Assembly: GCA_009692985.1 (NCBI GenBank)
Contig: SHYF01000043.1
Span: 1 to 11,380 of the forward strand
Direction: 5' to 3'
From: Dehalococcoidia bacterium
GTDB taxonomy: Bacteria; Chloroflexota; Dehalococcoidia; Lucifugimonadales; SHYF01
DNA length: 11,380 nucleotides
Shown: positions 3,724 to 9,605 of the stretch, piece by piece
Layout: each line of letters opens with the position of its first letter
How positions within the stretch are numbered: the stretch's first letter is position 1
Position numbers and translations under genes: made by a program
The notes under the pieces: model-generated
What the model saw: only the letters and a program-made list of their open reading frames with translations
Database searches by the model: none
What the model was told of the DNA's origin: nothing

Positions 3724-3867
3724 TAGCAGGGGGAAGAAAAACTCCTTCGACCATCCCCCTGGCCCCCTTCCTGGCCAGGAAGGGGGAGGAAATAGATTTG
3801 GGGGATACCCCCAAACCCCCGCCAGAGGGGCGAAGCCCCTCTGGAATCCCCTTTTTCAGCAGCCTGC
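3724..3867 (-). mobile_element. MITE-like GC-rich repeat element, copy 2
   Basis: The reverse complement aligns along its whole length with copy 1 at 46-193. It begins GCAGGCTGCTGAAAAA and ends near GGAGTTTTTCTTCCCCCTGCTA. It keeps the 10-bp-stem hairpin (3822-3844), the second hairpin (3797-3815) and the perfect 24-base palindrome (3763-3786). One end is flanked by TA; the other reads TT/AA, and the terminal inverted repeats match less well than in copy 1. It fills most of the 252-base gap between the radical SAM stop and the fabF start, so any fabF promoter must lie inside or just beside it. There is no coding potential. Confidence 0.75.
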
Positions 3868-3944: not shown

Positions 3945-5999
3945 TCAACGGGACGGGGTAATTCCTGACCGCCTGGGAGGGGATATGGTGTCCAGCCGGC
4001 CCTTGAAATCGTTCATGGCAACGGCGATGGAATCTCCCATCTCTCCAAGCTTCACGGAAACCGACTCGCCCAGTTCGCTTATGTGCGCGGAGAAAGATTC
4101 CTCCAATCCGCCCTTCCGGGAAGCTAAGGTCTCCATTAGCTCTGTCAGGCCTGTAGAAGCCGAAGTGCGCAGCTCTCCGAGCTTGACCGAGACTGACTTG
4201 CCCAACTCGTCAGCTTTGAATGCTAGAGATTCCTGGAACCCTTCGCGGGTGGACGACAATGACGCTCTAATGTCCCCTATCTTGGTGGAAAGTGTGTCAT
4301 TTAGCTCTTCCATCCTCAAAGAGATTGTCTCTTCCAGGTTGTTAACCCTGGCCGTGATGGCGTTTCTCATCTCCACTGACCGGGACACGCCAGGAGCAGT
4401 TGTTTGGCCGAACTTCGCGGAGACGGAGTTTGTCAATTCTTTCAGTGTGAAGAGCACCGACTCTTTGGTCTGTTGCAGTGTGGCGAAGACGCTCTCCTCC
4501 AACTGTCCAATCCTGGGCTCGGCCAGCTCTTGGACGCGGCCACCGGAGATGGATGCCACGCTCTCAGTGCGGCGCTGCTCAATCACCCCGTCATAGGCCC
4601 GGCTGCGGAACATTCGGAAAATCCGCTCGTACATCTTGTCCACAGGATGGAGCCTGCCTGTGTACTTGGCATAAATCTCTTGGGCCTCTTGCATGCCCCA
4701 CCGCTTGTCCTGAAACACAAACTGCCGCCCGGTGTACATGTGGTAGGGCCTCATCTTGTCTTCGGGCAGAACGGAACCATCCTCGTCCAGGGGAGTCAGA
4801 TTCCAGTTCACGGTTGCTGGCAGCGGCGTGAGCCAGTTGGCTGTCTGATACCGGCTGACTGTCTTGACCCAGTCGGCCATCTCCATAATTCCTGCTTCCG
4901 TATCGTATGGAAGGCCGATTATGGTCATAGCAGCGACGATGAACCCCATCTTGTTCAATGTCACCAGGTCGCGATGTACCTCAGTGGGGTCCTGGCGCTT
5001 CCTTATGATTTTCAAGTTTTCGGCGCTGCTGGACTCCACGCCCAAGTACAGCATCTCTATATTCGCTTGCCGCATGGCCTGAGCCAACTCCGGGTCCTGC
5101 CCAACCTCCGCGCGGGTCTGGCAGATCATCCACATATCGTCGGAATGGCCCTTCCAGCTCTTGAGACGGGCAAGCCGTTCGTCCCGGAACTTGGTGGCTC
5201 TTAGAGGTGGGGGATGCAGGTCGTCGGAGATGAACACGCTAAACCGCCCGTCCTTGGCGGTGTATATCTTGCCATCTTCCGCCAGCTTATGAATCTGGGC
5301 CAATCGGAGGAGCTCCGTCTCACGCGAGACCATGCGATACCCCAGGAACTGCTGGATAACCTGGCAGAACGTGCACTTTTCCGTGCAACCACGAACTGTT
5401 TCCAAGACACCAGCGGCCAGGGGATTGCGAGGCGTCAGGTCCCGCATGGAATCAAAGTCAGGCAATTTGACGTAGTCAGCAGGAATCAGGCCGCGCTTTT
5501 CCGTGTGGGCGAACTTTCCGCCGTCCAGGAAGGCGATGCCTGGGACCTTGTGGAGATGGGCGGTCAGGTCATCGCCGGTGTACTTGACCATCACGTCGCA
5601 GAGCTGGCCCACCACGTCCTCGCCTTCCCGTATGACAACCACGTCCACTTTGCCGTATCTCAGGGCCTCTTCAGCCAGTGGGCTCATATGAGGGCCGCCG
5701 CCTATGATCTTGAGTTCAGGATGGCTCTCCCTGGCCGCACGGGTTATCTCGTAGGCTCTGGGCGCTTCGTTGATGAGGGCTGTGACCATGAGGATATCAA
5801 CGTCCTCCAGGTCTTTGTCCGGGTCTATCTTCCCGTTTCGGTCCTCGTACCAGATATCGCGGTCGTAGAGGAATTCGCCATGCCACTGCTTCAGAGCGCC
5901 GGAGATGTAAAGAGGCCCCTGCCTGGGGATAGCCACATACTCAAAGTTGCCTCCGGTGGACTTGGGGGCAACCAGCATCACGTTTCTTATGTGGGACAT
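3945..5999 (-). CDS. B12-binding-type radical SAM protein with a hendecad-repeat tail
   Basis: A 684-residue product from the ATG at 5999. Residues 1-150 resemble a cobalamin-binding domain (VMLVAPKSTGGN, then GGPHMSPLAEEAL at 101-113), but the base-off motif DxHxxG is not seen (DIWYEDRNG at 48-56). Residues 195-400 hold the radical SAM core, with the [4Fe-4S]-binding cysteines C205, C209 and C212 in RGCTEKCTFC. Such enzymes generate a 5'-deoxyadenosyl radical; relatives methylate or rearrange lipids, hopanoids, pigments and antibiotics, but the substrate here is unknown. From about residue 499 to 674 the protein is a run of sixteen 11-residue repeats. The frame opens upstream to GTG at 6089, but a TATAAT lies inside that extension, and AAGAG precedes the ATG at 5999. 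It runs codirectionally with, and 155 bases after, the recombinase-like gene. Confidence 0.85.
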   Translation of the reverse strand: MSHIRNVMLVAPKSTGGNFEYVAIPRQGPLYISGALKQWHGEFLYDRDIWYEDRNGKIDPDKDLEDVDILMVTALINEAPRAYEITRAARESHPELKIIGGGPHMSPLAEEALRYGKVDVVVIREGEDVVGQLCDVMVKYTGDDLTAHLHKVPGIAFLDGGKFAHTEKRGLIPADYVKLPDFDSMRDLTPRNPLAAGVLETVRGCTEKCTFCQVIQQFLGYRMVSRETELLRLAQIHKLAEDGKIYTAKDGRFSVFISDDLHPPPLRATKFRDERLARLKSWKGHSDDMWMICQTRAEVGQDPELAQAMRQANIEMLYLGVESSSAENLKIIRKRQDPTEVHRDLVTLNKMGFIVAAMTIIGLPYDTEAGIMEMADWVKTVSRYQTANWLTPLPATVNWNLTPLDEDGSVLPEDKMRPYHMYTGRQFVFQDKRWGMQEAQEIYAKYTGRLHPVDKMYERIFRMFRSRAYDGVIEQRRTESVASISGGRVQELAEPRIGQLEESVFATLQQTKESVLFTLKELTNSVSAKFGQTTAPGVSRSVEMRNAITARVNNLEETISLRMEELNDTLSTKIGDIRASLSSTREGFQESLAFKADELGKSVSVKLGELRTSASTGLTELMETLASRKGGLEESFSAHISELGESVSVKLGEMGDSIAVAMNDFKGRLDTISPPRRSGITPSR
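3978..4505 (-). repeat. Sixteen tandem 11-residue (33-base) repeats in the radical SAM tail
   Basis: Residues 499-674 divide without insertion or deletion into 11-residue units starting at 499, 510, 521 and so on to 664. Typical units are ELTNSVSAKFG (521), ELNDTLSTKIG (565), ELGKSVSVKLG (598) and ELGESVSVKLG (642). Hydrophobic residues fall at unit positions 2, 6 and 10, acids often at 1 and 4, and Lys/Arg often at 9. One unit (532-542) is degenerate and contains Pro and Gly. The spacing 4-4-3 is a hendecad pattern, compatible with a nearly straight coiled coil or a membrane-lying amphipathic helix. The periodicity is directly visible; the structural reading is inference. Confidence 0.85.
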
Positions 6000-6080
6000 G
6001 GATTTCTCTTTTGGGAGTTCCGTACCGGGCACGTCAGTCGTAGAATGGAGATGTTTCTGGCGCTCGAAAAAGTCTATGGC

Positions 6081-6086
6081 ATTATA
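6081..6086 (-). promoter_or_regulatory. Putative -10 box of the radical SAM gene
   Basis: The minus strand reads TATAAT, a perfect -10 hexamer. No good -35 is seen 16-18 bases upstream (the region reads CTTTCACAGTCGC). If used, transcription would start near 6075, leaving a leader of about 75 bases before the ATG at 5999 and ruling out the GTG at 6089. One perfect hexamer alone is weak evidence. Confidence 0.35.
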
Positions 6087-6153
6087 CACCTAAGCGACTG
6101 TGAAAGGGAATAAGTCGAGTGCAACATTGCATGCAATCATCCGGGCTACGCAA

Positions 6154-7554
6154 TTATCTGTCGCTGCTCTGCCGTACCACGACTTTGGCCTCGCCGTCGG
6201 CAACGTCAATGCGCTCCACCCACTGCTGTAGTAGTTGCTGTTGCGCATCCGGGTCCATCTTCTCCCATTGGGCGGTGTCCAGGATGGCTCTCGCGTCCGC
6301 CGCTTGATCGGGCCCCGATGGTGCGAGGCCAACTCCCACGCCCTGCTCCTGTCCCGGCGAAGTGGGGCCAAGCTCGCTGAGCAGAGATCGCAGGCGACGG
6401 AGCGGGATAGCGCCGTCGGCGGCCTGGCGCAGGTATTTCAGGTAAAGTCGCCTCTGTCGGATTTGGATTCGCCGGTCATCGACAGAAGTTGCGCTGTCCG
6501 TCACTTCCTGCTGGCGTCGAGGTATAGCAGTGGTGACCTGAAGCTGCTGGCGCAGCTCCTTTACCACCGCCTCCTCGAGCAATGGGGCCCGCCAGGTGTG
6601 GTACGTGCATACGCTCTGGTTGATGCGGGTCTGGCACTGGTAGTACCGGTAGACTCCCTGTATGCGCTGCCCGTCTTTCCTTTTCCATGACTGGCGGCGG
6701 GTGACCCCGGCCATGCGGTTTCCGCACTGGGCGCAGTGGGCCAAGCCGGACAGCAGGAATGGCTGTACCAGCCCCTTGTGGCGGTTGGGTGTGCGGGTCT
6801 GCATCAGGTCCTGGACTCGGCGGAAAGCCTCTGGGGACACCAGGGGTGGATGGTTTCTGGGCACACGCAGTCCGAACCGTTGGTACGTGCCTGTGTACGT
6901 GCGATTGCGCAGTATGTCCCGGATTGTGACCAGGCTCCAGTTGCCGTCCCGCCTGGTTCGGAACCCTTCCTGGTTCAGGTGGCGCGCAATGTTGCGCAAC
7001 CCCATGTCCTGCTCCAAGTACAGGCGGAAGATAAGTCGCACCACATCTGCCTCAGGAGGCACCTCCTCAAGCTTCTTCCCTTTTCCAATGCGATAGCCGT
7101 AGGGCGGTTTCCCTAGTCCTTCGCCTCGGATCGCTTTGGATTGCATGGCATCCAAAATGCGCTGGCGGCGTTCCGCCCCAGGCACGGTCTTGTGCAGGGT
7201 GCGGACCACAGTCTGAAAAGCGTCGGGTTGCCCCTGCAATGTGGATGCCACTCGGAAGCCAAGGGCGTCAATGGCCAGGACTGTCTCTAGAGCCTCCTCA
7301 GGGGTGGATCCCAGGTGTGATGGGTCCGTAACCACGACCAGGAACGTGCCGCGCTGCTCCCTGAGGTGCTGAAGCAACCTACCGAGCGCCGGATGGCCTG
7401 CCTGGGCGTTGTTTTTGGACTCCGGGAAGGTGTCGGAAAGGGTGTGGCCCTCCCGCTGGCAGAATTGGGAAAGCTGTCTTTGCTGGGTCGCTCGGGAGGC
7501 TGGCAAGCCTGGAGGAGCTTCCGGGTCGAATAGAAAGTAACCAAGGGCTCGCAT
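6154..7554 (-). CDS. Serine-recombinase-family protein with degenerate catalytic domain
   Basis: A 466-residue product with large-serine-recombinase layout: a resolvase-like N-terminus (1-125), a recombinase DNA-binding domain (about 128-250, with RRQRILDAMQSKAIRGEG and KPPYGYRIGKGKK at 149-161), a zinc ribbon (C274, C277, C307, C316) and a helical C-terminus. The catalytic signature is not recognisable. Active members begin Y-x-R-x-S; here Y6 is followed by FLFDP, so Leu and Asp stand where Arg and Ser are expected. The later DRLxR motif reads DPSHLG (77-82). Active recombinases integrate or excise DNA through a Ser-DNA link; this one probably binds DNA without cutting it. The ATG follows the stop of the zinc-ribbon gene by 3 bases, so the two are likely translationally coupled. 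No att sites or phage genes are nearby. Confidence 0.85.
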   Translation of the reverse strand: MRALGYFLFDPEAPPGLPASRATQQRQLSQFCQREGHTLSDTFPESKNNAQAGHPALGRLLQHLREQRGTFLVVVTDPSHLGSTPEEALETVLAIDALGFRVASTLQGQPDAFQTVVRTLHKTVPGAERRQRILDAMQSKAIRGEGLGKPPYGYRIGKGKKLEEVPPEADVVRLIFRLYLEQDMGLRNIARHLNQEGFRTRRDGNWSLVTIRDILRNRTYTGTYQRFGLRVPRNHPPLVSPEAFRRVQDLMQTRTPNRHKGLVQPFLLSGLAHCAQCGNRMAGVTRRQSWKRKDGQRIQGVYRYYQCQTRINQSVCTYHTWRAPLLEEAVVKELRQQLQVTTAIPRRQQEVTDSATSVDDRRIQIRQRRLYLKYLRQAADGAIPLRRLRSLLSELGPTSPGQEQGVGVGLAPSGPDQAADARAILDTAQWEKMDPDAQQQLLQQWVERIDVADGEAKVVVRQSSDR

Positions 7555-8325: not shown

Positions 8326-8513
8326 GGGAAAGGGGATGGTCGCCCCGATGTGTCTGGGTTCATCACTCTGCTGGACAGAAGGATTATATCGTGGACTGAG
8401 GGCCGCAAGTGTAGAATGGGGTAGGGGAGTGACAACAAACTTGGCTTGGAGGAAAGGCACTTATCAACCGCGAAGCCATCGACAAGGCGGCAGAACAGGA
8501 GAGGGAGTAAGAA
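8308..8513. other. Divergent intergenic region
   Basis: This 206-base stretch separates the minus-strand zinc-ribbon gene from the plus-strand signal-peptidase-like gene. On the plus strand TAGAAT (8412-8417) could be a -10 box, but no good -35 precedes it. Near the right end there are a GGAGG at 8448-8452 and an open stretch ending TAA at 8508-8510 that encodes a charged peptide (NREAIDKAAEQERE), but it has no usual start codon. I see no RNA gene. Confidence 0.4.
8497..8507 (+). promoter_or_regulatory. Ribosome binding site of the signal-peptidase-like gene
   Basis: AGGAGAGGGAG contains two overlapping Shine-Dalgarno-like cores; GGGAG (8503-8507) is six bases from the ATG at 8514. An in-frame TAA at 8508-8510 excludes any longer upstream start, so this ATG is well fixed. 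Confidence 0.7.
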
Positions 8514-9605
8514 ATGCATCTCTGGAAACTTGTCCTTGGGATTGTTATTACTGTTGCTGTTCTTTCACTGGCCTATGGAGTAGTTAATAAGCGATACCAA
8601 GCCGTCCTAAATGAACGTGATGAAAGTATCCGCCTAGGGCAGCAGCTCTCAGTCAATATTGCCGAACTGCAACAGCGACTAACGTCAACGGAAGGAATAC
8701 TAGCAGGTAAGGTGGGGGATATTAGAGTTTTGCAGGCAACCTTGGATTATAAGAATCTCCAGCTTGGAAAGCTTGAGGTGTCAGAAGCGGGGCTTAAGGC
8801 ACAATTAGGTACACTTCAGACAGAGAGAGACAGTCTAGTGGATGGACTGCGTCTACTTGATCTGAGTCACAAGGAACTGCAACTGGACTACGGAACCTTA
8901 CAAGGGGAATACACTACCTTGTCCTCTGCAGTGGGAACTTTGGAAGGAGTAAAGTCCCAAGTAAGTGGGCTCCAACAACAAGTGCAGTCGCTTAACGGGG
9001 ATATGGCACGACTGCAGGCTGCAAGAGCTCCCCTAATTGTGGAGTCCTATAGAGTTGGCTTCAAATGCACAGGAAGTATGGAACCCAAGATTACCTGCCT
9101 TGACGAGGCTACATGGCTATCTAACTTCCGACCGCAAGAGGTAAAAGTCGGAACAGTCATCTCATTTACTCCCACCGCAGAGTGTAAGCTGTCGAGTGCT
9201 AGTGTAGCGCATCGAGTAACAGCAATAAATTTGGAAGCTGGGACTATCTACTATAGGCCAAAAGGAGATGCCAATTCCAGTGATGATGGCTGCTGGATAC
9301 CTAGTTCTAGCGTAAATGGCTACATCATAACCCTGTACAAGAATACCAAGTTAGAGAATGCTCATATTAGGGATAGAATCAATGCACTGAAATGGGCCTT
9401 AGACTTCGCCTTGGCAGGCTCAGAGCAGTCCTCTCAGATCTACAAGCAGTATGTAAGTCTTCACTGTCCAGGGAATGTATGTCCTAGCCAGTATTATGGT
9501 ACTGCTGTGAGTCTATATGAGGATGTACAGCAGAAGTACTCCCAGTATACATCAGCCTATGACACTTACAGGGCAGCGATAGAGGCGGAAAAGAGGAGGT
9601 TGTAG
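8514..9605 (+). CDS. Membrane-anchored coiled-coil protein with SipW-like signal peptidase domain
   Basis: A 363-residue product. Residues 6-24 form one hydrophobic segment (LVLGIVITVAVLSLAYGVV). Residues 27-172 are Leu/Gln/Glu-rich and look like a long coiled coil. Residues 182-275 carry the boxes of ER/archaeal-type type I signal peptidases (S26B): TGSMEP with Ser188, KVGTVISF (211-218), VAHRV with His233, and KGDANSSDD (250-257) with Asp252, followed by VNGYII. That family uses a Ser-His pair where bacterial LepB uses Ser-Lys. Six cysteines in the domain and tail suggest an exported, disulfide-bearing location. The substrate is unknown. The start is ATG with GGGAG six bases upstream. The gene is AT-richer than its neighbours (26 and 27 of 60 bases are G/C in 8521-8580 and 9181-9240), suggesting acquisition by transfer. 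It converges on the DUF5667-type gene. Confidence 0.8.
   Translation: MHLWKLVLGIVITVAVLSLAYGVVNKRYQAVLNERDESIRLGQQLSVNIAELQQRLTSTEGILAGKVGDIRVLQATLDYKNLQLGKLEVSEAGLKAQLGTLQTERDSLVDGLRLLDLSHKELQLDYGTLQGEYTTLSSAVGTLEGVKSQVSGLQQQVQSLNGDMARLQAARAPLIVESYRVGFKCTGSMEPKITCLDEATWLSNFRPQEVKVGTVISFTPTAECKLSSASVAHRVTAINLEAGTIYYRPKGDANSSDDGCWIPSSSVNGYIITLYKNTKLENAHIRDRINALKWALDFALAGSEQSSQIYKQYVSLHCPGNVCPSQYYGTAVSLYEDVQQKYSQYTSAYDTYRAAIEAEKRRL

Follow-up and report, generated by a model that had tools for sequence, protein, structure and literature searches.

A coiled-coil-stalked S26B signal-peptidase-like protein of Dehalococcoidia and an N-terminal tag linked to its sister branch

The locus and its surroundings

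The window, that is the whole analysed stretch of 11,380 nucleotides, was contig 43 in the metagenome-assembled genome (MAG) of a Dehalococcoidia bacterium, which had a size of 1.3 Mb and a completeness of 71%. A gene on its + strand encoded a protein designated P0001, whose ATG start at 8514 was preceded at a short distance by AGGAGAGGGAG. On one side the gene was flanked by a zinc-ribbon coiled-coil gene and on the other by a DUF5667 gene with an ECF-sigma gene beyond it; these three genes were on the - strand. There was no surface-protein gene among these neighbours, which counted against the explanation favoured below. The features of the locus were as follows.

8497..8507, + strand: likely ribosome-binding site AGGAGAGGGAG, predicted from the sequence
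8514..9605, + strand: stalked S26B signal-peptidase-like protein P0001, 363 amino acids (open reading frame, TIGR02228, SEC11 profile)
8529..8585, + strand: membrane helix, residues 6-24 (hydropathy)
8592..9029, + strand: stalk of the coiled-coil type, residues 27-172, which as a single straight helix would measure about 22 nm (heptad periodicity)
9039..9359, + strand: S26B catalytic domain, residues 176-282 (TIGR02228, SEC11C profile, hhalign)
9066..9068, + strand: Cys185 (Ser-3), proposed to form a disulfide with Cys195 (pair in 19/19 members)
9075..9077, + strand: Ser188 (TGSMEP), presumed nucleophile (invariant, 19/19)
9096..9098, + strand: Cys195 (Ser+7), putative bond partner of Cys185 (together in 19/19)
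9183..9185, + strand: Cys224, proposed to form a disulfide with Cys260 (both in 14/19, neither in 5/19)
9210..9212, + strand: His233 (AHRV), presumed general base (invariant, 19/19)
9267..9269, + strand: Asp252 (KGDAN) (invariant, 19/19)
9285..9287, + strand: Asp258 (Asp252+6) (invariant, 19/19)
9291..9293, + strand: Cys260, co-occurring with Cys224 (never either alone in 19)
9369..9602, + strand: C-terminal region, residues 286-363, without a membrane helix (hydropathy, alignment)

Several other elements were present in the window. Inverted repeats at 59-193 and 3724-3855 had arms of 63 and 74 nucleotides that were 94% and 84% complementary, and the sequence CCCCCTTCCTGGCCAGGAAGGGGG occurred with them in three copies, the middle one (2277-2300) at 83% identity. 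On the - strand, a B12-binding radical SAM protein was encoded at 3945-6089, the tail of which resembled the Pfam apolipoprotein model (E 5e-13, below the cut-off). A serine recombinase gene was located at 6154-7554 (- strand). Since a genome of the same genus (G001) also had a serine recombinase gene near the same genes, this was not a fresh insertion.

The GC content of the P0001 gene was 0.468, compared with 0.598 in the remaining window, and the initial annotation had taken the AT-rich composition as a sign of recent acquisition. However, G001 possessed an orthologue between the same neighbours, bar one extra gene on one side, with a GC content of 0.471. The same place and the same composition meant that the gene was at least as old as the genus, and recent acquisition was not supported. 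At 22 other loci of the family, the difference between gene and flanks ranged from -0.142 to +0.054 and the gene was lower in 15; the value at the window (-0.13) was near the low end of this range. With regard to a phage origin, one scan of IMG/VR returned no relatives of P0001.

Catalytic domain, stalk and cysteines

The initial annotation had placed an open reading frame at 8514..9605 with a membrane helix at residues 6-24, Ser188, His233, Asp252 and a G-x-V-x-x-F box, and all of these were present in the order given, the box being GTVISF at residues 213-218. Conservation of Ser188 and His233 in homologues had been proposed as a check, and both residues, as well as Asp252 and Asp258, were identical throughout the 19 members of family alignment A2, over which all such counts were made. 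The Ser/His/Asp/Asp order was that of SEC11, with the Asp pair six residues apart in both; yeast Sec11 requires each of these two Asp. Compared with PDB, a profile of the catalytic domain matched SEC11C (E 4.2e-10) and SEC11A (E 6.2e-9). The SEC11 alignment brought together the GSMEP, HRV and GDxNxxxD motifs, namely the nucleophile, the His and both Asp; the Asn of GDxN varied in some family members. When 15 S26B domains of the ordinary kind from the phylum were compared by hhalign, the result was 99.7%.

Matches to the model libraries were weaker. The TIGR02228 model (archaeal signal peptidase I) matched P0001 with E 4.7e-10 and 39.6 bits, below its cut-off of 51.85. It matched each of the 19 members of A2 individually (E<=0.001), and one family member passed the cut-off (G042, 56.5 bits). 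The SipW model NF046067 gave E 6.6e-5 and 22.6 bits and did not reach its cut-off of 190, and the Pfam S26/S24 models gave no match to P0001 at E up to 1. Thus, both NCBIfam, with its TIGR02228 model, and Pfam would miss this protein at their cut-offs.

The LepB type (S26A) was rejected: its Lys position was occupied by His in 19 of the 19 members, and at E up to 1 there was no match of PF10502 to P0001. Each of the seven family genomes tested, including that of the window, encoded a LepB-type (PF10502) peptidase separately. Against the orthologue from G001, dN/dS was 0.12 for the catalytic part, 0.32 for the stalk and 0.20 for the C-terminal part, the last with a dS of 1.56 that was near saturation. 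Judged by its sequence, P0001 is a peptidase of the Ser-His (archaeal/SipW/ER) S26B type and not of the LepB type, and its domain is probably active; the initial annotation had reached the same assignment.

The position of this domain relative to the membrane was unusual. The top hydrophobic window of P0001 was at residues 6-24 (Kyte-Doolittle mean 2.60), and the gap from this helix to Ser188 was 162-164 residues, so that the catalytic Ser did not adjoin the membrane helix as it does in ordinary S26B proteins. Ordinary S26B proteins of the phylum, represented by 20 rows, had Ser 1-11 residues after the helix (3-18 by the best-window measure), and none of these rows had the stalked architecture. 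The predicted coiled coil of about 160 residues between helix and Ser188 was also confirmed. Namely, hydrophobic residues in the stalk (27-172) peaked at a period of 3.50, with a power matched by none of 5000 composition-preserving shuffles, and its 146 residues included no Pro. Outside the stalk the heptad signal was absent (matched by 4242/5000 shuffles at 175-285 and by 1139/5000 at 286-363).

Periodicity was also measured in 21 further family stalks, two N-terminally cut members having been left out as too short. In 15 of them no shuffle among 1000 matched the observed power, and one did so for L078. The signal was weaker in L079 (2/1000 shuffles), L075 (6), L074 (11), L070 (28) and the Pro-rich L077 (38). 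The stalks of L062 and L073 had their top period at 2.35 rather than 3.5, yet no shuffle matched their power at 3.5. Most family stalks kept a single heptad register with few prolines, and the coiled-coil stalks with a complete N-terminus would measure 14-38 nm if straight.

A search for this architecture in relatives used 51 S26B rows, which were only those that fitted the search pattern, other rows being dropped uncounted; one row (L066) was set by hand because the pattern had matched its stalk. The rows comprised 27 with a gap above 60 residues, 21 without a stalk and 3 without a gap value. The missing values concerned L007/L076 and L063, which had lost their N-terminus at contig ends, and L072, which had an in-frame stop. 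Thus, the helix, long spacer and S26B domain recurred in 27 of the 51 rows. All 27 carried the Cys pair at Ser-3 and Ser+7, as did the three rows without a measurable N-terminus, and 20 of the 21 stalkless rows lacked it. The exception (L012_141) adjoined a stalked gene. The genome G007, which had five stalked copies, encoded a short stalkless S26B protein with the Cys pair (L025:356-724) upstream of a stalked paralogue (L025:1196-2404). In ordinary signal peptidases the active site is supported by the membrane helix, and we consider that the Cys pair around the catalytic Ser probably takes over this role. The five members without Cys224 and Cys260 all belonged to one branch, and a single event, rather than five, was the probable cause.

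A hydrophobic window above 1.39 was not found C-terminal to the catalytic part in any of the 24 members examined, and Arg286 and Cys323 of the C-terminal region were invariant in the ten-member alignment A1. The charges around the P0001 helix (one Lys/Arg before it and three after) did not settle its orientation. Several of L008/L077, L110, L111, L112 and L117 appeared to have lipobox-like N-termini. An outside location of the domain was favoured by these putative anchors together with the paired cysteines.

The stalked family was patchy and mainly confined to Chloroflexota, with Ser 76-310 residues after the helix. A search with P0001 in 59 near genomes found relatives in 10 and family members in 7, and the GTDB collection yielded relatives at 18 loci. 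Within the order, 14 of 250 genomes had relatives at E<=1e-33, with 21 copies, and 46 had any S26B match; in the class sample, relatives were present in 10 of 393 genomes at E<=1e-18. The searches of the order and of the class sample used the catalytic domain; they took the place of a phylum search by full-length alignment, in which coiled coils dominated the matches (200 of 400 genomes). Among the papers listed by literature searches, none described a stalked signal peptidase.

In a tree of 97 columns, with the Ser+7 column masked and no root inferred, a branch with a support of 99/94 separated 24 rows, P0001 among them, from the others, and each row of this set had the Cys pair. This set included L008 (the gene L077), which had a Pro/Thr-rich stalk without a coil and whose placement rested on a long branch. 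Outside the set, the coiled-coil L110 grouped with the Pro/Thr-rich L111, L112 and L117 (support 96/85). The kind of stalk therefore changed yet the spacer remained long, which suggests that distance is what selection keeps. The loci listed had no neighbour gene common to the whole family, and linked genes were found only in the sister branch described below.

A few members had irregular genes. In a SAR202 MAG, an in-frame stop (L072:8325-8327) separated stalk and catalytic domain. At L077:8219-8551, the family C-terminal region overlapped the peptidase ORF but was encoded in a different frame, which points to a frameshift in the MAG or the gene. Additionally, contig 177 of G001 (L080) had two adjacent ordinary membrane-proximal S26B genes.

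The N-terminal tag of the sister branch

The members without Cys224 and Cys260 formed a sister branch with a tree support of 100/99. Their neighbours encoded secreted proteins that had about 70 N-terminal residues in common and unrelated bodies. In the shared part, a signal helix was followed by the tag F-x-L-P-x2-L-E-[EQ]-G-R-[PT]-[AP]-P, which varied between proteins, and by a stretch rich in Pro and Thr. The bodies contained LRR, fn3, SWM repeats or VWA. When ten of them were compared by BLAST, an LRR pair and the Acidimicrobiaceae protein were unrelated to the fn3/SWM group at 1e-5. LRR proteins are among the eukaryote-like proteins discussed for sponge symbionts in the available part of PMC6306507. 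A C-terminal membrane helix was absent from the 14 tagged proteins examined, two interior windows reaching 1.70 and 1.61. Thus, the N-terminal helix was their only evident anchor.

In the order, the tag was found at E<1e-13 in 17 proteins from 5 of 250 genomes: ten in G575, three in G004, two in G574 and one each in G455 and G621. Four more genomes had matches at E 0.005-0.01, which were taken as chance. The sister-branch peptidase was present in G575, G004 (L069), G455 (L067) and G574 (L072), and all four carried the tag. Since genes next to the peptidase in these four genomes and in G942 had served as seeds for the tag model, co-occurrence at those loci was not an independent test. The independent part was provided by the 246 genomes of the order without the sister branch, of which one had the tag, and by G685, which belonged to another order and was not a seed. 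G685 possessed a sister-branch peptidase (L070) together with three looser tag matches (E 7.3e-11 to 4.7e-8), and it was the one genome among 393 of the class sample with the tag; a further stalked peptidase in G685 (L171) was of the other kind. These searches scored up to 23 (order) or 15 (class) first-look candidates per genome, and absence refers to that sensitivity.

The most extensive array was on contig 21 of G575 (3.4-32 kb; L125, L153), where ten tagged genes and a stalked peptidase gene among them were located on one strand; the bodies scanned there differed and contained fn3, SWM or LRR. Altogether, 15 of 21 tagged genes were within about 24 kb of a peptidase gene, and the other 6 were not near one, which counted against the link.

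Carriers of the tag were scattered over families f4, f18 and f41, another order (G685) and a MAG assigned by name to another phylum (G942, Acidimicrobiaceae). At the same time, five congeners of G455 (G452, G453, G454, G456 and G457) had neither the tag nor the sister-branch peptidase. In G942, the gene for one tagged protein of 193 amino acids adjoined the peptidase gene (L065:7683-9659). Searching 100 genomes, namely G942 and its kin, gave a strong match only in G942 itself (2e-45), with four others at 5e-14 to 7e-11. A horizontal move into Acidimicrobiaceae and a mis-binned contig are both possible origins of this locus.

Overall, the tagged proteins are probable substrates of the sister-branch peptidase. 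Searches for the tag in the genome of the window (71% complete), in G001 (97% complete) and in further stalked branches found none. Because of this and of the missing surface-protein neighbour, the step from the sister branch to P0001 is one that we infer.

Possible function and relation to known systems

We somewhat favour the view that P0001 is a surface endopeptidase on a coiled-coil rod that trims or releases particular surface proteins. P0001 would be an exported Ser-His-Asp serine endopeptidase with its one N-terminal helix as the anchor, and the rod would lift the domain about 20 nm over the cytoplasmic membrane. SAR202, a part of Dehalococcoidia, has monoderm isolates that lack genes for peptidoglycan synthesis and have an S-layer-like coat, as described in the available part of PMC10444878. 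In such monoderm cells, the rod would keep the active site close to the coat, and particular surface proteins, once exported, would there be cut in their N-terminal segment. In the sister branch, a cut near the tag, just past the signal helix, would mature or release the tagged proteins since this helix is their only evident anchor. Action on cell-envelope substrates had been suggested in the initial annotation; it gained from the surface-protein linkage in the sister branch and found no such neighbour at the gene in the window. In weighing this and the following readings, we relied on the array of ten genes, on G685 and on the lack of relation between the bodies of the tagged proteins.

The main rival, which we regard as unlikely, was a signal peptidase working at the level of the membrane, with the coil folding back, lying flat or pairing with another protein, so that the active site would still reach the membrane face and cut the signal peptides of a few dedicated clients. 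In 14 proteins, the tag was 9-20 residues past the signal helix and thus within reach of an ordinary cut. A dedicated S26B-like enzyme is exemplified by SipW, whose client TasA has a special residue just past the cut according to the available part of PMC10269814. However, the single heptad register and the few prolines of most stalks argued for a rod. The Pro/Thr-rich stalks (L077, L111, L112 and L117) would hardly form hairpin coils and still gave a long spacer, and the Cys pair went with the stalk.

It was also rather improbable that the tag served surface anchoring or display and was recognised by another factor, with the peptidase as a mere gene neighbour. This would agree with G621, where a tagged VWA/fn3/SWM protein (L154:1427-5113) was encoded in a genome without an S26B match, a case that counted against the preferred link, and with G685, whose three tagged genes were on other contigs than its peptidase gene. 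Moreover, the overlap of tag and peptidase was partly by construction, given how the tag model was seeded. On the other hand, the near absence of the tag from genomes without the branch, in the order as well as in the class sample, and the scattered carriers beside five congeners lacking both spoke against this reading.

A self-cutting protein would be a very unlikely alternative, in which P0001 frees its own domain or stalk and the cut itself is the function. LexA/UmuD-like self-cutting proteins belong to the same Ser protease clan as S26, and the segment between stalk and domain was partly conserved. However, no residue between Leu153 and Cys185 was invariant in the 19 members, and the tagged neighbours would be left unexplained. 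Finally, a retired peptidase serving as a structural S-layer post or adhesin would fit a stalk that resembled coiled-coil posts and weakly matched the NCBIfam SlaB model in the coil only, but the invariant Ser, His and two Asp and the catalytic dN/dS of 0.12 made it hardly credible.

Returning to the surface endopeptidase, a broader and only tentative proposal is a new surface-protein sorting system. Here, a stalked, disulfide-stapled S26B peptidase would read the N-terminal tag of unrelated secreted proteins and mature or release them at the height of the S-layer, away from the membrane; enzyme and clients might spread together from lineage to lineage, with separate clients for every branch. 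The defining property of signal peptidases is a cut at the face of the membrane. The long spacer between anchor and active site, if it is real height, would mean that S26B chemistry was moved to the cell surface, and the linked tag provided a concrete candidate substrate class for stalked peptidases. For the sister branch, this was a strong lead to the substrates.

Compared with SEC11 and archaeal signal peptidase I, P0001 had the same residue order and the same three motifs, but its Ser was far from the helix, it carried the Cys pair and it had no C-terminal helix. In the sortase/LPXTG and exosortase/PEP-CTERM systems, a short tag on unrelated bodies is handled by a gene-linked dedicated membrane peptidase; by contrast, the sister-branch tag was N-terminal and the enzyme, which would cleave at it, was of the S26B type. 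SipW is an enzyme of the Ser-His type. P0001 differed from it by its stalk, its other clients and the weak score with the SipW model. According to the available part of PMC10269814, SipW of Bacillus, which serves TasA, is likewise a second peptidase beside the LepB type with a client marked near the cut. Tetrabrachion of Staphylothermus marinus is a coiled-coil S-layer stalk that holds the protease STABLE; this protease belongs to the subtilisin family and its stalk, 70 nm long, is a separate molecule, whereas P0001 combined stalk and S26B domain in one chain (PMC5744192, available part). The S-layer stalk SlaB of Sulfolobus, also a predicted coiled coil, would extend about 20 nm from the cell surface; it is structural and anchored by a C-terminal helix, with no protease domain described in the available part of PMC5744192, whereas P0001 has one.
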